A stretch of DNA of 64,000 nt from Rhizophagus irregularis (Eukaryota > Glomeromycota > Glomeromycetes > Glomerales > Glomeraceae). Positions 42,863 through 52,934 of the stretch are shown in pieces; position 1 is the stretch's first letter, and every line of letters starts with the position of its first letter. The notes under the pieces were generated by a model. The model made no database searches. It was given only the letters and a program-made list of their open reading frames with translations, and was not told the DNA's origin. The stretch is from positions 3,720,001 to 3,784,000 of the forward strand of contig NC_089448.1 in assembly GCF_026210795.1 (NCBI RefSeq), read 5' to 3'. A program made the translations under genes and the position numbers.

Positions 42863-43713
42863 CTAGAGCTCCGAATGGGTCAGGTCAGGTTAGGTTAATT
42901 GATAAACCTGACCTGAAATTTTTTTTCAGGTCAGGTCAGGTCAGGTTATATCAGGTTGTCTGTTTGACCTGACCTGACCTGAAACCTGAAAAATTTCAGG
43001 ACTATTTTTATTAAGTATTGAAAAAAAACGGTACAAAACTTTTTTTTTTTAATATAACATTATGAAAAAAATGTTTTCGCAACGTTATTATTGAAATATC
43101 AAAAAAAAAATGTTACGAAACATTTTTTTAATATAATATTATGAAAAAACGTTTTCGCAACGTTTTTTCTCGAAATATTGCGATTCAACATTTTTATATT
43201 AAAATCATAAAAAAGTGAATCCCAATACTGCAATTCACTTTTTTTATATAGAATTAATATAAAAAAAGTGAGTTGCGGTATTGCGATTCACTTTTTTATA
43301 TTGATTTTGTATAAAAAAAGTGAGTTGCGGTATTGCGATTCACTTTTTTATATTGATTTCATATAATAAAAGTGAGTTGCGGTATTGCGATTCACTTTTT
43401 TATATAGATTCTATATAAAAAAAGTGAGTTGCGGTATTGCGATTCACTTTTTTATATTGATTTCATATAATAAAAGTGAGTTGCGGTATTGCGATTCACT
43501 TTTTTATATAGATTCTATATAAAAAAGTGAATCGCAATACTGCAACTCACTTTTATTATATAGTAGAATCAATAGTTTCAGGTCAACAGGTCAATCAGGT
43601 CAGGTCAATCTTTATACCTAACCTGAATTTTTTTTAAAAATCTCATACCTGACCTGAATTTCAGGTCAGGTCAGGTCAGGTTACCTGAATTTGGCTGACC
43701 TGTTCAGAGCTCT
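42863..43713. mobile_element. hAT-type MITE inserted in the integrase gene (GGTCAGG family)
   Basis: Flanked by an exact 8-bp duplication AATTATAG (42855-42862 and 43714-43721), typical for hAT elements. The ends are CTAGAGCTCCGAATGGGTCA and, in reverse, AGAGCTCTGAACAGGTCA. The subterminal parts are rich in GGTCAGGT/ACCTGACC repeats. The centre has tandem palindromic units (43203-43555). Removing it restores the integrase frame. No coding capacity. A fragment of the same family lies at 56140-56292. Confidence 0.88.
43203..43555. repeat. Tandem palindromic 40-60-bp units
   Basis: About six copies of AAAAGTGAGTTGCGGTATTG followed by CGATTCACTTTT, joined by TATA-rich spacers. Each unit is itself an imperfect inverted repeat (AAAGTGA...TCACTTT). 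Confidence 0.85.
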
Positions 43714-44229: not shown

Positions 44230-44840
44230 TCTAAAGAGGAGTTTGGGTAAAGAAACGTTCTAACGTTTCTTTTTTCTTTATTTTTGTAGGGAACGACTTG
44301 GGAACGGTCTTGAAGGACCTCGGGTAAGTTGAATGGAGGAAGTTTGGGGAATTAACTTAAAAGAAACGTTCTAACGTTTCTTTCTTAATTTATTTTTGCA
44401 GGAAACACCAGGAAAACCTCGGGTAAGTCGAATGGAGGGAGTTTTGGGAATTAATTTAAAAGAAACATTTTAACGTTTCTTTTTTTTCTTTATTTTTGTA
44501 GGAAAAGACTTGGGAACGGTTTTGGAGGACCTCGGGTAAGTTGAATGGAGGGAATTTTTGTGATTTGACTTAAAGAAACGTTCTAACGTTTCTTTTTTTT
44601 TCTTTATTTTAGTAGGAAACGACTTGGGAACGTCTTGGAGATCTCAGGTAAGTTGAAAGGAGGGAGTTTTTATAAAATAAATTTAAAAGAAACATTCTAA
44701 CGTTTCTTTTTTCTTTATTTTTGTAGGAAATGACTTGGGAACGGTTTTGGAGACCTCGGGTAAGTTGAATGGAGGGAGTTTTTGTAGATTGACTTAAAGA
44801 AATGTTCTAACGTTTCTTTTTTCTTTATTTTTATAGGGAA
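44230..44840 (+). repeat. Six-copy ~110-bp tandem repeat with splice-site-like borders
   Basis: Each unit has the palindrome GAAACGTTCTAACGTTTC, then TTTATTTTTGTAG, a 21-34-nt stretch such as GACTTGGGAACGGT, then GGTAAGTTGAATGGAGGGAG. The palindromes start near 44254, 44361, 44460, 44572, 44688 and 44798. The ...TTTGTAG / GTAAGT borders look like repeated acceptor-miniexon-donor units on the strand opposite the transposase. The mini-exons do not keep one frame, so coding is doubtful. Confidence 0.75.
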
Positions 44841-45192
44841 TAGCCTTAGAAAAGCTATGGTTGATGCAGTGTTATTAATAAAGAATCAGTCAATGATGTT
44901 TTCATTAGCAAATGATTTATTAAAGCGGAAATAAATATTTATTTCAAATGATTTTGCTGTAGCCGTTAATGAATACTTGAGTGGTATCAAAACTAGAACC
45001 GCATAATGCCATTTTGCTTGATCGGAAAATACTCTATATTTTTTGAAGAATTATTTTTTAAAATTTTATTAGCTTGTTGAATAATTACGTCTAAATATAA
45101 AATTAATTACGTCAATACAATTTAATACGTCATAATGCAAATTAATTACGTCAGTATAGAATCGATATAATTATAAATTTTTATTAATAGAA

Positions 45193-46885
45193 TTATTCGA
45201 TTACATTAACAAAATTATCAAGATTGATTTGCTTTGTAGAACAAAAGCGTTCTCTCAAAGCTTCTTTTTTTAATTTTTTTATAAACTTAATATCCTCATT
45301 ATTTGAACCATAATTTTTTTCCTGACGTTGTAAATATAAGATCACTTTATCGTAACATTCAATAACTTCGTTATGAGTTATTGTTGGTAAAGGTTCCTCC
45401 TCAATTTCTTCTTTTTCTTGATTGTTAGGTTGAACTGCTTTTAAAATTTCATCATCAGAAATCATTTCCATTGTTACCTCAGAATCGTCATAAAGAACAA
45501 ATTCTTCAGCTGTGAAAGAATTTTTGAAATCAAGTTTATTTATTAAGACTTGAACTTCTTCCAACTCCCTTAGGCGTTCAAGTTCAAGTTGTATATCAAC
45601 ATTGTTCTCGTAAGCTTCACGGTTGACACTTTCATCATCACTTGGCTCACCATATTCAGGTATAATACCTGCTTTTAGCCAACAATTTTTGATTGTATCA
45701 TTCGTAACATTATCCCACGCACGTGCAATATATTTGATACATTTTTTAATGTCAATTTCACCAAGTTCAGTGCCATGTTCATTGAAATTATCAAAAGCTT
45801 TAACCCGATTACGCAAATACAACTTTCTATATTGTGCCTAAAATAATTAAATTTGAAACAATTACAGTGAACAAATACATTAAATTTGAAACAATTACAG
45901 TGAACAAATAAAGTTTACTTCTTACTTTAAAACTATTGATGATTCCTTGATCGCAGGGTTGAAGGTGAGATGTGGTATTTGGAGGAAGGTATTCAATAAC
46001 AATATTTGTGAGAGTTGTATTTTCAGATAAAGCATGTGTTGGAGCATTGTCAACAAGTAGAAGTATGTGCCTATTTTGTGCTCTCATATAAGAATCTAAT
46101 TTTTTAAGATAATCATTCCAGATAGATACTTGCATCCAACTTTTTTTATTCCAATAATAATTGACCGGAAGGGAATTTTTGTTAATATTTTTAAGCACTC
46201 TGGGATTTTCATATTTATGTATAAATAGGAGGCGCAATTTTTCAGTTCCGGTTGAATTGCAGGTAAATAAAATAGTTACACGATCCTTAGATTGCTTAGT
46301 TCCGGTTACAGAACTATTAGATATTGTACGATTCGGTTTCATTTTCCAGAAGAGACCCGTCTCATCACAATTAAAAATATCTTTTGGATCATAATCTCTT
46401 AATGTTTGACGAAGTTTTTCTCTCATTGAATCAAGATCTTGAATTGGTGCACTACCCCCTTCTCCATGAATATTATACTGCTTAAGATTATGTCTCTTTT
46501 TAAAATTATCAAGCCACCCATTTGATGCTTTGAATTTTTCTTCATTACACAATAAGGCAAAATCTAATGCCTTTGTTGTTAGAATACTTTCAGTAAGAAT
46601 AAGTCCAGCTTGAAGTGCTTTATCTATCCAGACAGTAAGTGCTTCTTCAATAATAGGAAACTGAATTTTTTTTTCGCGTTTTAAATTGGCTTGATATGAA
46701 TCATTATCTATTGCAAGCCATCAGTCTTTCTCTTTCAAAATATCACTCACCATTCCTTCACTAACATCATATTCTTTTGCTAAATCCTTTTGTTTTAAAA
46801 AAGGAGTGGATATTTTTTTTAAGCAAATCTCCTTCTTTTGAGCTGACGTGAGTGATTTACATTTTCTAGGAGTTTCTTTTGGCAT
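45193..46885 (-). pseudogene. pogo/Tigger-type transposase (one in-frame stop)
   Basis: Two exons (45926-46885 and 45193-45837, phase 0) make about 534 codons. N-terminal CENP-B-like helix-turn-helix (SLTSAQKKEICLKK, LAKEYDVSEGMVSDILKEKD), a second DNA-binding helix region (SNGWLDNFKKRHNLKQY) and a DDE core with aspartates in IFNCDETGLFWKM, LLLVDNAPTHA and LQPCDQGIINSFK. The C-terminus is acidic. One TGA follows KEKD where Arg or Lys is expected; otherwise both exons are open. It would cut and paste the element at TA sites. A relatively recent copy, since all else is intact. Confidence 0.9.
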
Positions 46886-47292
46886 ATTATTAATATCAAA
46901 GGAGGAATAAATGAAAGTAATGATAAGTATAGTGTAAAAATCCATTTTTATATAAATAATTACCATATTTAATAAAATAGCAAGGGGTAAATTATCTTAA
47001 TAGAAAATTACAAAAAATTTACCAGTATTACTAAAGAATGTTCAATTAAAAACCGCAAAAATTCTTCGTTATAATGAAAAAAAAATTCGTTGTAAAAAAA
47101 TCCGTTATACCAAATGGCATATTTATATAAGTAATTCACACACTTTACTTCGTACTATGTTATACAGTAAATAAATAGTAAACTTCGTTATACCAAAGTT
47201 TTTTTTATATTTAAAATTGGTACTACATTGAATGATCCGTTATATCATATTATTCGTTATATCGAAGTTCGTTGTAGAGAGAGGAGACTGTA

Positions 47293-49325
47293 GTATAAAA
47301 TTGGTTCTACTTGTTCACATAGAATTACTTTTCTTATACCATCCTTTGTTTTCCTAAATAAAATATTATTTTGATAAATATATTGGGTTGAGTTTTTTCG
47401 AATTTGGGTTTTCCATTTATCCGTTATACCATCCATAAAAGTGAGAGTTGTTAAAAATAAGATTAATTCGTTATATAGTTGTTCATCCATGATCGTTATG
47501 TGAGGTTGAAGGATTGGTGTGATTATTAGTTGAGGTTGAGTCAAGACGAGAGAATGCATCAGCATTCGCATGTTTAGTCCCTTTCTGATATATAATGTCA
47601 TATTTATATTCTGATAAAGCAATCTTCCATCTTTCTAATCTTTTATTATTATTTTCTGTTATTGAATTTAATAACCACTTGAGTGCTGCATGGTCGGTGG
47701 TGATAGTGAATTTACTTCCATAAAGATAATGTCAAAAATATTTAACTGCCCATACAATCGTAAGACATTCCAGTTTTATGATGGCATAATTCTTTTCCGC
47801 TGGTATTAAAGTTTGACTAGCATAGGTGATTACGTGCTCTTGATCATCATTTTTCTGTGCAAGTACTACGCCTAATCCTATAGTTGAAGCATCAGTATAT
47901 AAAAAGAAAGGTTTAAAAAATCTGGGTATTGTACGATCAGTGCTGTTGTTAATTTATCTCTTAAATTCTCAAATGCCTTCTGTTGTAAATTCGTCCATTC
48001 GTAGGGTGCATCTTTTTTTAACAACTTGTACATTGGATCAGCAACTTTAGCAAAATCTTTGATAAAGCGTCAATAATAAGAGAATAATCCTAGGATTCCA
48101 CGTAATTCTCTAATATTTTGAGGCTCTGGATAATTAACCATTTTATTGACTTTTTCTGGATCAGGTTTAACACCTTCTTTCCCCACAACATGTCCTAAAA
48201 ATTGAAGTTCCGCTGCTGTAAAATGACATTTTTCTGCTTTTAATCTTAGATTCGCCTTACGAATTCTATTTAGAACTTCTTCCAAATGTTGAATATAATC
48301 TTTAAAAGTTTTTGAATATATAATGACATCGTCAAGATAAACTAAAATGAACTTTTCCTTTATCCCATGTAAAACTTTGTCCATAGTTTGCTGAAATGTC
48401 ACAGGTGCGTTACAAAGTCCAAAAGGCATGACTTTGAATTCGTATGTTCCAAATTTTGTGATAAAGGCTGTTTTTTCCTGATCTTCTGTCCTTACTTTTA
48501 TTTGCCAATACCCTGATGCTAAATCTAAAGTGGTGAACCATTGTGCATCTTGTAGAGAATCTAATAATTCATCAATTCTTGGAAGCGGGTAATTATCCTT
48601 TTTTGTAATATCGTTAAGAGGTTTATAATTAACGCAAAACCTAAGTTTTCCATTCTTCTTTTTCACTATCACTACTGGAAATAACCAGGGACTAGTTGAA
48701 GGTTCCATTAGCCCTTGTTCTAACATGTCATTAATTTCACTCTCAATAAATTTATTTTCCTTTGGTGCTGTCCTATAAGCTCGCTTTTTGATAGGTGGCA
48801 CTTCTTCAGTGATAATAATATGTTCCCCTTCTGTAGTTTGTTTTAACTCTTGTAATGATTTAGTGAATAAGTCTTTATTTTTATCTAGTAATTGATGGAG
48901 TAATTGATATTGACTTTTCTCTAATTTTCCAATTGGTACAACTTTTTCTGGTTCTAGTTGAATATTAGATACATTTGGACTTTCTGATCCTTGCATCACG
49001 TGATAAATGTTCCAATCTTCTTGAACTATTTGACAATTATTACAAACTTCTTGATCTCCTGAGGTCTTACATAGGCATTTTCCTGGCCCTTTACTATTAA
49101 TTACGCCAGTACTATTGTGACTTATTTGTTGCTTAATATATTCCAAATACCCTGAGTGATATTCTCGATTATTGATTTGAAAAGTACTTTTAGTTATTTC
49201 TGCCTTATAAAATGGAACGGCTATGGTGTTTCTAACTCATCTTTTAATTCTAATTCGTCTACTGGATCAATGACTGTATATTTTGTTGGGTCCAATTTTT
49301 GTGAACATGTGACAGGAATTTGTTG
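47293..49325 (-). pseudogene. Gypsy reverse transcriptase / RNase H (pol middle part), broken
   Basis: The RT core is open from 49146 to 48070: YPLPRIDELLDSLQ, TLDLASGYWQIKV, FGLCNAPVTFQQTMDKVL and the catalytic YLDDVIIYS. RNase H follows (LSFYTDASTIGLGVVLAQKN, IKLECLTIVWAVKYF, TTDHAALKWLLNS, ADALSRL). A Cys cluster (CLCKTSGDQEVCNNC) lies between protease and RT. Stops: TGA in SYY-stop-RFIKDF and KYF-stop-HYLYG, both where Arg is usual, and TAA after YEGI. A frame change near 49225 separates protease and RT, another lies near 47520-47600. Confidence 0.9.
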
Positions 49326-50250
49326 TTAGATTCCTTCATATTTAATGGTGATGGTATTCTGTCCATAATCAATATTTGCATTAACCTTCTTCAACCATTC
49401 GTTACCAAGCAGAACATTATATTCGGCTGAGTTTGTGACTATCATATTGACATAGACTTTAATATCCCTCATTTGCACTGGGACTTGCTGAACCATTCTT
49501 AGTGGTGATGATTTTTGTCCTGTTACATCAATGATTTTAATATTTGTAGGTAATTTAATTCCTTTATTGACTTTATCTAGGAATCTTTTAGAAATAATAC
49601 AACCTACAGCTCCTGAATCTATTAAAACATTAACAGGTTGTCCATATACAATCGCTTCTCCATATAAGGCTTCTTCAGCTCTTTCTTTTTGATTAAGATA
49701 TGCTGATTCTTCTCTAATCAATTGGTTAAGAATATCAGCACAATAATTAACTAGTGTTGGGGTTAATTCATTATGTTTTGCCATAAATTGGAATTGTTCG
49801 AAAGAAGTAATTGTCCAAGCTCCTTGTTTTTCAGGTTCAGTTCGCTGTAACTCTTGATAATCAGGTACTTTCGTTAAATAAACATCACAATTAAAAGCTG
49901 GATCGTTAAATAGAAATAAACATTCATCTTTTTTAATATCTAGTGCTGTTTCTTCTTTTGTTTCTCTAAGCACAGCTTGAAGAAAAGATTCACGATTTTC
50001 TACTTTTCCTCCTGCTACTTGCCATAAATTATACATTATTTTATTTTTCTGTAGTCATTTCGACAAACAAATTCCAAAGTTATTATATAAAATATTGAGA
50101 ACATATGTAGGTCTTTTTAATAGTTGGGTTGGCTTTTCAATTGGCCTGATTTCTTCTAATGGTTCCTTCCAATTCACTCTTTTTGCACTATTTTCATTAG
50201 AGGGTTTTCTAAAATTCGCACTCTCTCCCTCTAGAGAAGCGTTTAGTAGT
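49326..50250 (-). pseudogene. Nudix hydrolase domain fused to retropepsin in Gypsy pol
   Basis: Pol frame entered from gag by -1 frameshifting. The first domain is Nudix-like: strand PTYVLNILYNNFGICLSK, then LWQVAGGKVE and the Nudix box GGKVENRESF...LRETKEETAL (49938-50012), which keeps the G-x5-E-x7-RE-x-x-EE spacing with Ala for the last Gly. It continues through FLFNDPAFNCDVYLTKV. The second domain is an aspartic protease (VNVLIDSGAVGCIISKRFL, active-site DSG, and NVLLGNEWL). A TGA (LSK-stop-LQKN) near 50057 interrupts the Nudix domain where Arg is likely; the track from 50036 to 49326 is open. Nudix enzymes cleave nucleoside diphosphate-X compounds such as oxidised dNTPs; a role in cleaning the dNTP pool for reverse transcription is inference. 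Confidence 0.85.
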
Positions 50251-52269
50251 TTAAACGACCGTTACTTTGAAAACCGTTATTGGTTCCATTATTACCATTA
50301 TTATTATTTGATGGTGGTGACCTGCAGTTCCTAGAGACATGTCCTTTTCTTCCACAATTGTAACAATCAACATTCCTTAAATCTCTTCCATTATTGTTGC
50401 AATTATTATTATTTTGTTGATTATTTCTTTGACGACAGTTTTTCGTGATATGTCCAGTTCTTCCACAGACATAGCATCCTGAATTATTTCTGTTTTGATT
50501 ATTATTATTGTTGTTATTTGGAGTAGAGTTGGTTGGTTTAGTTTCTGTACGCATTTGGCTTAATGCTGCAGTAATTCCTTCGCTGATTTTTTATTCAACC
50601 ATCTTTTCTACACTTTCTGGTTGTGAATAACTCATTGAATAGGCAGGTTGATACATGACTAGGTTAGTTCGAGCAGGAATCATTCCTCCATTCATATTTT
50701 GTAAATAACCTGGCATCATCAAATAAACTGATAAGTCCATTCCCATTGAAAAAGCAGTTTCTAATGCCTGTGCTTTTTCCATTGCTTCTTCTACTGTTTG
50801 AGGCATAGCGGATTGTACAGGTACAACAAATTCAGGTCTTAAACCTTCGATAAATTCATGAATTTTATCCAATTCCATTCGTCTATCTGTAAGATCCACT
50901 CTTTTCCATAATTCTGTAATTGCTGCGATATATTCTTCAATTGTTTCACCTTGCTTTTGTTTCCTATTTTGCAGTTGATGTTTCTACTGACTAATTCTAA
51001 AAGGATTACAGAAATGATCCTTAAATAAGTGCATAAATGATTGTTGAGGGTTATTATCATCCTCCCAAAAAGTAATATTTTGACAATTGTACTAAGTTAA
51101 TGCTGTCCCTTTAAGATAGGATGCTACTAAAACAATCGCTCATTTTTCGCTGACTCTATTAGCTATACAAGCTCTACTAAAAGCTTCAATCCATTCGACA
51201 GAATCCTGATTTCCTCCTTTAAAAACTGGAAAATCAACCAGTCTAGATTCTTTAGGTTCAACTCCTTTTGCATAAAATTTTTGTGCCTGCTGAAAAAACT
51301 GTAACATAATTTTATTTTGTTCATTTTCAGTAATAGGAGTTTGTTGTTCTTCTGGTTCTTCATCACCTTGTAAATTATTACTAGAAAAGTCAAGAAGGTT
51401 ATTCTGTCGAGAAGTTTTCAAGGTTGATATTCTAATACTAGAAGAACTAAATGAATCCTGGAACGGCTTTGTAGTTACAAATGATTTAGAATTGAATGAT
51501 AATCCAGTATCAGAATACGTTTATAAGTTGAAAATGGTTTCGTACTCCATTTATTTGAACTACCGCTAATTGTAGCTTTTTGCTTATCTTTCTCATTTTT
51601 TCTAGAATTGTAAATGTGATCATTTGTTGTATCAGCTATACCTAATTGATTAAAACTACTATTTCCATCATTTTTGAGTACTGTATCATGTGATATTATA
51701 CTTTCTGCTTCTTCTTTTTCTTCATTTCGTTGGTTTTGCCACGCTTTGTCTTGTATACTTGTTGTAGATTCAGTTCCTCCAAATTGTTGTTCACTACCTG
51801 AACTTTCATCATTTTTATCTGTCTTATTTTGGTTTCCTGACATCTTGCTTGTATTACTGGCTGTATCTGATAATTGTTCTGAATAATATGCTTTCCAATT
51901 ATTGAAGCGGTCTGTGACTTCCCAATAGAATTGTATCGTTTCAACTAATGTATCAAATGCTGGTATTACTATATACCTAATAGTTTGTACTAACTCCTGA
52001 ATTAATCTGTAAACTTCTTGGCTATCTCATTTTCGCTGTAATTTCCTAAAGATTCGTATAGTATTTTGTGTAAAAACACTATCTGGATATCTGGATGAAA
52101 TAACGAATTGCCAAAATTCTCTAAATCTAGGATTCTCCAATAATCCTAAATTCTGATCTTCTGGATAGCAATTTGCACACGATAAATCTTCAATTAAATC
52201 CTGTTTTCCTTGGTTATGATCTTCTATATGTTGAAAAATCTGTTGTAAATACTGAAATTCCTTATTCAT
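50243..52269 (-). pseudogene. Gypsy gag, broken
   Basis: Starts at ATG 52269 (MNKEFQYLQQIFQHIEDHNQ) and ends at TAA 50243. An N-terminal region of about 270 residues, a Ser/Asn-rich linker, the capsid-type region (RLVDFPVFKGGNQDSVEWIE, LVASYLKG, ELWKRVDLTDRRMELDKIHE) and two CCHC zinc knuckles (CYVCGRTGHITKNC and CYNCGRKGHVSRNC) in an Asn-rich tail. Breaks: TGA at about 52024 and 51137, TAG at about 51091 and 50990, TAA at about 50600, and a frame change near 51520. Gag would build the virus-like particle of the element. Confidence 0.88.
50249..50255 (-). promoter_or_regulatory. -1 ribosomal frameshift heptamer between gag and pol
   Basis: On the minus strand the gag codons are CGT TTA AAC TAC TAA, giving the canonical slippery heptamer T TTA AAC one codon before the gag stop. 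Slipping back one base enters exactly the open Nudix-protease frame (CTA CTA AAC GCT). About ten bases downstream TTCTCT and GGAGAG can pair as a small hairpin. Confidence 0.8.
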
Positions 52270-52296
52270 TCACAATTACTATTTTTCTTTAGTTTC

Positions 52297-52312
52297 CACT
52301 CAACTCGCACCA
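52297..52312 (-). other. tRNA primer binding site
   Basis: On the minus strand, TGGTGCGAGTTGAGTG starts 3 nt after the 5' LTR and begins with TGG, complementary to a tRNA CCA end. The complement ends TCGCACCA, like the acceptor end of tRNA-Phe, but the tRNA is not certain. Confidence 0.7.
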
Positions 52313-52315
52313 AAT

Positions 52316-52934
52316 TGTTATCCTGTTAATAATTAAAGCTGACTGAAAAACTTTAATGCTTTAACAGGTTAACTGGAGTTTAACTTAATAGGAGAGTCTT
52401 AAGTTGATCACAAATAATTACGTGAAATAACGTTAAATGTTCAGTTAAAGAAAATAGGTTTTTATTAAAATAATGTAAGATTTTGGATACGACGAAAATA
52501 TAGATAATCTCTTGGTTGCGAAATTAACTATCTTGAATTATACTACTGAGAATAATACTCTTTTTGTATAACTCGAAAACTACAATACAATTCTTAACTA
52601 ACTAACTGACCTCCCACTTGGTAAAATCCTATCACTATTTATAATAAAATAAAAATCAAGAATATTTGATAAAATAAATAAAACAAATATAATAAATAAA
52701 TAAAATAAAATAAAATAAATAAGATAAAATAAATATATCAAATAAATAAAATATAACAAATAAAATAAATAAAATTAATAAAATAAATAAATCAAATATA
52801 TCAAATTTATCAGATTTATCAGATTTATCAAATAAATTAAGAAAATCAAGAAAATCGAAAAAATCAAGGAATCTACAAAATGATTTACAAAATTGATCTA
52901 CATAAAATTACTGCGCCACATTTCTATTTTAACA
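52316..52934 (-). repeat. 5' LTR of the Gypsy element
   Basis: 619 bp, TGTTATCCTG ... TTTTAACA, near-identical to 39625-40193. The longer length comes from an expanded AAATAAATAAAAT microsatellite at about 52670-52800. Confidence 0.95.

Follow-up and report, generated by a model that had tools for sequence, protein, structure and literature searches.

A Rhizophagus Ty3/Gypsy-type retrotransposon family with a putative Nudix hydrolase domain between Gag and protease

A 64,000-nucleotide stretch of the Rhizophagus irregularis genome (assembly GCF_026210795.1, contig NC_089448.1, positions 3,720,001 to 3,784,000; hereafter the window, with coordinates counted from its first base) contains a truncated copy of a long terminal repeat (LTR) retrotransposon that spans 52934 to 47294 on the minus strand. 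Within this copy, minus-strand positions 49326-50054 form a single open frame of 242 amino acids in which a Nudix domain is fused to an aspartic protease (PR): residues 6-88 matched the NUDIX profile PF00293 at 36.5 bits (cut-off, 21.1; E 5.7e-9), and residues 120-239 matched RVP_2 at 58 bits (E 1.1e-15). An initial annotation, made from the letters alone, had proposed just such an in-frame fusion to a DSG protease, had located the Nudix part of a Ty3/Gypsy element after Gag and before the protease, and would have abandoned the idea if the NUDIX profile found nothing significant; the match was significant, and the placement is borne out by profiles, by multiple copies, by relatives from other species and by the predicted fold. 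The two motifs it had pointed to lie within about 10 bases of where it put them, the Nudix box (GGKVENRESFLQAVLRETKEET) at 50012-49947 and the protease LIDSG at 49625-49611. Set against the consensus GX5EX7REUXEEXGU with its metal-binding glutamates, the box of the window copy has Thr at the first U and Ala in place of Gly and is otherwise intact. We read the locus as a decayed, 3'-truncated copy of a Rhizophagus Ty3/Gypsy LTR retrotransposon family whose pol opens with a Nudix domain, a reading that, taken jointly with the rest of the explanation developed below, falls slightly on the probable side.

The copy could be followed on the minus strand from its 5' LTR (52316-52934), which was located by its ends (TGTTAAAATAG ... 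GGATAACA), is homologous to the 5' LTRs of two other genomic copies (L049 and L050) and, as far as seen, is the only LTR of the window copy. Three bases past it lies a probable primer-binding site (TGGTGCGAGTTGAG..., 52295-52312), the exact 9-mer of which, TGGTGCGAG, is present in 5 of 11 scanned copies; a tRNA scan of the window found none, leaving the site with no matched tRNA. The N-terminal part of gag and the capsid (CA; 50591-52269) are interrupted by several frame breaks and gave, from their open reading frames (ORFs), a weak Gag/Ty3_capsid match, while the equivalent region of L049 matched Ty3_capsid (E 3.7e-11) and Retrotrans_gag (2e-8) in Pfam. The nucleocapsid (NC) end of gag (50243-50590) carries two CCHC zinc knuckles (zf-CCHC E 3.5e-9, two stretches). 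The Nudix domain (49713-50177), recognized by its PF00293 match, its box and the predicted fold of the matching unit in copy L002, is split by an in-frame TGA at 50055-50057, past which its first strands extend in the same frame, so the window copy is unable to make the whole domain. The protease (49330-49673) is followed by a reverse transcriptase (RT) domain (48187-48666; RVT_1 E 1e-39) within the ORF at 48070-49236, and then by an RNase H region (47483-48069) that was identified by homology to L049 and is broken by frame changes, its final piece being the ORF at 47483-47731. A separate integrase (IN) frame starts with ATGGATGAACAAC at 47490 and is cut off at 47294, where homology to the sister copies stops.

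Searching the genome (146.7 Mb in 32 contigs) with the 242-residue Nudix-protease unit gave 151 matches, among which 13 loci, the window copy included, cover at least 177 of the 242 residues at 87-100% identity; the remainder are shorter fragments at 53-92% identity or matches at 23-39% that involve the protease part only (query residues from about 96). A six-frame search with PF00293 yielded 18 matches, 13 of them copies of the Nudix-bearing element and all above the cut-off; the matched Nudix stretch, partial in some copies, has no stop in 9 of these 13. With the family RT, 14 matches were found at 68-100% identity (to E 1e-60), the next family standing at 58%. A Nudix match is in place in 11 of the 14, and the other three are all broken: C3:760447 keeps only protease, from unit residue 181, C31:153582 only remote protease pieces, and C19:1394688 is an RT fragment. 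No family copy with an intact protease and no Nudix domain was seen among the 14 RT matches, so the Nudix-less copies that the initial annotation had named as the mark of a single host-gene capture or a misassembly were encountered only as debris. Misassembly and single capture were both rejected in view of the 13 loci of the same genome and the relatives in other species. Two stretches of contig C3, 761710-761895 (minus strand) and 828061-828615 (plus strand), hold the halves of one Nudix-protease unit (residues 181-242 and 1-185) 66 kb apart and in opposite orientation, as would be left by an inversion with a breakpoint inside the element.

Copy L049 (contig C1) has a 925-amino-acid pol frame without stops that comprises Nudix, PR, RT and RNase H, plus a 479-amino-acid integrase frame; its gag frame has one in-frame stop. 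Pfam confirmed Ty3_capsid and CCHC in this copy and found RT_RNaseH (E 1.7e-43), rve (E 1.4e-13) and Integrase_H2C2 (E 7e-18). Its LTRs, which end TGTTA...AACA, differ by one mismatch in 634 aligned columns, a polypurine tract (AAGGGGGGGAAAG) precedes the 3' LTR, and ATAC stands on each flank, features that together point to a recent insertion (not dated further). From the window copy and L049, the order of the element is Gag (CA-NC), then in the -1 frame Nudix-PR-RT-RNase H, then a separate integrase frame. This order, the Ty3_capsid match and closeness to other Gypsy-type RTs suggest that the element belongs to Ty3/Gypsy. Several Gypsy lineages of the same genome (the L022-L031 family, L129, L130 and L131) have PR and RT homologous to those of the Nudix family, with RT identities of 51-58%, and no Nudix match in the stretches examined; the RTs of L024, L026 and L027, also free of Nudix in those stretches, are 60-61% identical to that of a metagenome relative, P0003.

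The junction between gag and pol provides a candidate route for expressing the domain. The gag frame of 10 copies closes with CGT TTA AAC TAC followed by TAA or TGA, and pol goes on in the -1 frame. A slip site, U UUA AAC, lies just ahead of the gag stop (50249-50255 in the window, minus strand). Of 11 scanned copies, 10 keep the heptamer T TTA AAC unaltered; the eleventh, L058, gave no match, its alignment being interrupted there. Folding predicts an eight-pair hairpin (50217-50241, minus strand) seven bases past the slip site; in each of the four copies tested, its energy fell 2.7-3.2 standard deviations under that of base shuffles. For this hairpin 95% of cells pair, covariation did not exceed that of shuffles, and in copy L055 the region folds differently. 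To judge from these signals, an NC-Nudix-PR-Pol protein is quite likely made by transframe expression: ribosomes slipping at U UUA AAC would produce the Nudix domain at the low Gag-Pol ratio, the transframe protein would carry it into the particle, and PR may free an NC-Nudix protein resembling the betaretroviral NC-dUTPase. At the other end of pol, the start codon (ATG) of integrase overlaps the stop codon that closes the Nudix-PR-RT-RNase H frame (ATGGATGA; window 47478-47490, minus strand, and equivalent sites elsewhere), and the 12-mer ATGGATGAACAA at this overlap occurs in 8 of 11 scanned copies. Because integrase has its own frame overlapping the pol stop, its expression may call for recoding a second time or for reinitiation.

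Beyond this genome, two protein searches returned 12 and 24 matches, of which the named ones are all from Rhizophagus (R. irregularis, R. diaphanus and R. clarus) and the rest are unnamed or metagenomic. Both R. irregularis and R. clarus have further instances of the Nudix-protease fusion, as do metagenomes, and R. diaphanus proteins contain a Nudix domain. A profile search gave 777 matches; among the best 120, which were listed, are two Nudix pieces from Funneliformis geosporum (P0093 and P0114). Domain orders were assigned with local profiles on 138 proteins: Nudix precedes PR in 35, PR precedes Nudix in 3 (P0096, P0105 and P0115), and Nudix is followed by RT with no PR between in 2 (P0059 and P0089), while 83 have Nudix alone, 5 a zinc knuckle plus Nudix, 5 PR alone and 5 two Nudix domains.

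Sequence alignments of the Nudix domain (76 non-redundant rows) revealed that the three catalytic glutamates are kept in 71, 72 and 70 of the 72 rows with letters there, and the box glycine in 55 of 71. Among 70 complete boxes, 55 fit GX5EX7RExxE(E/D) and 43 fit the glycine as well. The ratio of nonsynonymous to synonymous substitution rates (dN/dS) computed from 10 of 14 R. irregularis copies, the other four being partial, was 0.365 for Nudix (bootstrap, 0.236-0.586) and 0.103 for PR (0.055-0.178). Copy L051 lacks the linker, RT and RNase H, which therefore have no value in that set; with up to 14 copies, the ratios were 0.34 for Nudix, 0.30 for the linker, 0.17 for RT, 0.15 for RNase H and 0.09 for PR. 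The Nudix dS is low (0.107 versus 0.206), which pushes its ratio up.

These figures bear on whether the domain is an enzyme at all. A captured host gene kept in frame as noncatalytic cargo or spacer would explain why the Nudix ratio (0.34-0.37) is near that of the linker and above those of PR and RT. It would not explain why the glutamates hardly change even in rows whose identity drops to about 40-50%, whereas the box glycine varies, why dN/dS stays below 1 (upper bound, 0.586), or why R. irregularis and R. clarus both retain the domain, at 61% identity, and we regard passive carriage as very improbable. Some points count against an active, selected domain: the conservation rows were picked by the family profile at 60 bits, which favors conserved ones, the box-only dN/dS is not bounded below 1 (0.102-1.561; 10 copies), and the domain, though constrained by these substitution ratios, is less so than PR and RT, among copies that are mostly dead. 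On balance, we are highly confident that the element carries a genuine, selected Nudix domain.

The class of enzyme is less sharply drawn. Structure prediction, a check that the initial annotation had recommended, gave the L002 Nudix-protease unit a Nudix fold. By sequence, the family profile matched MutT (E 9.8e-9) and dATP pyrophosphohydrolase (E 1.2e-8) in the PDB, and Pfam scans, which covered the window frames and some of the relatives, brought up no dUTPase family. Sequence similarity favors the MutT / (d)NTP group, that is, to hydrolases of (deoxy)nucleoside triphosphates. Against so specific an assignment, the fold comparison leaves MutT, Dcp2, NUDX1 and ADP-ribose hydrolases unseparated, the cut-off of TIGR00586 (MutT, 8-oxo-dGTP diphosphatase; 97.9 bits) was reached neither by L002 (33.6) nor by the R. 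clarus protein P0009 (45.8), and no protein reached any NCBIfam cut-off. The element domain thus resembles MutT-type pyrophosphohydrolases (MutT, dATP/dihydroneopterin triphosphate pyrophosphohydrolase, NUDT15 and NUDX1) in having a Nudix box and in finding its nearest sequence matches among them, and departs from them in scoring far below the equivalog cut-offs and in forming part of a retroviral polyprotein. As MutT and dUTPase do, the domain might hydrolyze unwanted nucleoside triphosphates near RT (oxidized or noncanonical dNTPs, or rNTPs) and so lessen misincorporation into cDNA. That such sanitizing of the nucleotide pool is its main role is, on this sequence evidence, an evenly balanced proposition.

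Two other activities were considered. Dcp2 gave the top Nudix Z score of the model (14.5) and is among the weak sequence matches (E 0.025, or 0.0025 with the family profile), which raises the alternative that the domain acts on RNA 5' ends, stripping the RNA of the host or of the element of its caps or 5' phosphates, for example to favor packaging or curb host translation. Fusion to the RNA-binding NC would suit an RNA substrate, and the decapping enzymes of poxviruses offer a further parallel. Yet MutT and other (d)NTP enzymes outscore Dcp2 by sequence, the Z scores lie close together, and no feature specific to Dcp2 turned up, none being sought; we think this activity unlikely. The domain might instead degrade signaling dinucleotides or ADP-ribose-type molecules (the diadenosine polyphosphates Ap3A and Ap4A, or derivatives of nicotinamide adenine dinucleotide) to counter host stress or defense responses. 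The (d)NTP enzymes again rank first in sequence profiles and docking is weak evidence here; we know of no defense of this type in arbuscular mycorrhizal (AM) fungi and rate it marginally less plausible still than action on RNA ends. Sanitizing of nucleoside triphosphates remains the preferred function.

Related Nudix domains also occur outside the family, in short metagenome ORFs that appear to derive from other Gypsy lineages: in addition to the NC|PR position of the family, this kind of Nudix occupies the PR|RT position and probably also the one after RNase H. These further slots, beyond that of the NC|PR family, appear to be new here. P0059 begins with the end of a protease (E 6e-5, 25 residues), followed by Nudix and then RT; its source is a 1,091-base contig labeled as an Ignavibacteriaceae metagenome-assembled genome, which is more likely a misbinned retroelement than a piece of that bacterial family. 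In the Nudix-alone group, 26 residues at the start of P0107 align with the RNase H end of P0003 (E 9e-6), a similarity that Pfam did not see, and the first nine residues of P0117 resemble an RNase H end, Pfam finding NUDIX only; these two are leads for an RNase H slot, weaker than P0059, P0096, P0105 and P0115 are for theirs.

The Nudix of P0059 is 52-55% identical to those of four family members, its RT only 31-35%, and that RT is 50% identical to the RT of L129, in whose examined stretch no Nudix was seen. P0115, P0096 and P0105 likewise share 46-67% of Nudix residues with family members (P0115 over 54 residues) and 23-36% of PR residues. Within the family, the Nudix is the faster part: between an R. 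irregularis copy and R. clarus, identity is 61% for Nudix, 67% for PR and 73% for the N-terminal part of RT. Because the faster part is the one more alike across lineages, the comparison points to transfer of the module after the lineages split. The domain might instead have been acquired once, by one Gypsy ancestor, with the other orders produced by rearrangement or metagenome misassembly. All those orders come from short metagenome ORFs (P0059, P0089, P0096, P0105, P0115, P0107 and P0117), and the Nudix tree is poorly resolved (110 rows, 119 columns; 62 of 107 inner branches open), both of which fit a single acquisition and detract from transfer; the tree puts element-type rows in one group of 91 (support 82, drawn open) that includes a long viral row, L077, and was left out of the transfer counting. 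A single acquisition would, however, require seven chimeric ORFs from separate database entries and is at odds with the identities above, namely the Nudix-to-RT and Nudix-to-PR contrasts across lineages and the faster evolution of Nudix within the family; we consider it doubtful. The preferred reading is that at least two Gypsy lineages took up members of one Nudix clade, at different slots, so that AM-fungal retrotransposons would share an exchangeable accessory module inserted at the positions known for dUTPase (NC|PR, PR|RT and RNase H|IN). Two weak ORFs are all that speaks for the RNase H slot, a point that tells against this reading, and we put it midway between doubt and belief.

dUTPase is the nucleotide-pool enzyme known inside pol or pro of some retroviruses and LTR retrotransposons (PMC4531489, PMC5408684, from the parts available). 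In betaretroviruses (mouse mammary tumor virus and Mason-Pfizer monkey virus) it is made as a transframe protein, NC-dUTPase, whose enzyme part is coded between NC and PR, and in nonprimate lentiviruses it lies at RNase H|IN (PMC4531489); in LTR retrotransposons of bdelloid rotifers and basidiomycetes it lies at PR|RT (PMC5408684). The Rhizophagus element shares with the betaretroviral system a hydrolase domain between NC and PR, a -1 frameshift and the transframe NC-enzyme protein predicted here, and differs from it in having an unrelated fold, in being a fungal Ty3/Gypsy element and in that its frameshift is deduced from sequence. With the rotifer and basidiomycete elements it has in common an accessory hydrolase in pol, and the PR|RT slot is also used by Nudix in P0059, P0096, P0105 and P0115; the enzyme is another one, and the window family uses the NC|PR slot. 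The finding is thus best described as a Ty3/Gypsy element with an accessory, putative nucleotide hydrolase of a fold unrelated to dUTPase. If this is correct, nucleotide hydrolysis beside RT would be a convergent function of retroelements, reached here by a second, unrelated enzyme fold, and the element would supply an NC-enzyme transframe fusion outside retroviruses. That an unrelated hydrolase sits in dUTPase slots would also make it testable whether nucleotide-pool quality limits reverse transcription in some hosts.

The initial annotation had known of no described Gypsy lineage with a Nudix domain at this position, a statement that holds almost entirely. In the open-licence PubMed Central literature (as distinct from subscription journals, preprints and supplements), the closest work is a survey of NUDIX proteins in fungi, published in 2025 (PMC12210691), the available parts of which describe no element, domain order, role or frameshift. 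That survey does list a subfamily K of 14 proteins, 9 of them with "diverse retrotransposon related domains," and assigns it to Diversisporales. As described there, subfamily K resembles our element in consisting of glomeromycotan Nudix proteins with retrotransposon-related domains in 9 of 14 and differs in its host group, the element being found in Rhizophagus with pieces in Funneliformis. Table 2 of the same survey lists two further subfamilies, C and F, each with 19 proteins that carry deoxynucleoside kinase domains, another link of Nudix to the nucleotide pool in these fungi. The available part of PMC11075540 has no occurrence of "nudix." AM fungi have been reported to be rich in NUDIX genes (PMC12210691, PMC7550596, in the parts available), NUDIX being among their differentially abundant domains (PMC7550596). 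Because 13 of the 18 six-frame PF00293 matches are this retrotransposon, part of the reported expansion may be transposon-borne.

A host source gene did not emerge from six-frame genome searches with P0059, P0107 and P0071, which gave for the Nudix part only element copies and relics. Of the five other PF00293 loci, three gave no match to the element Nudix profile at E 0.05, and L043 and L044 scored 13.9 bits against it. Viral contigs (60 loci, 16 of which entered the profile comparison) carry distant Nudix genes, 25-57% identical over short pieces. In P0071, P0084 and P0097, an element-type Nudix stands behind an unassigned N-terminal part that to the eye resembles an F-box; two of the three were scanned with Pfam, which gave no F-box, and all three may be free-standing host genes.

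Next to the window copy, tandem or palindromic repeats with many self-matches adjoin the element at 43175-43575 and 44249-44850. Just past the truncated 3' end, at 45193-46996 on the minus strand, lies a Tc5/pogo-like DNA transposon whose ORF (45827-46720) matched HTH_Tnp_Tc5 (E 1.4e-17) and DDE_1 (E 1.4e-33).
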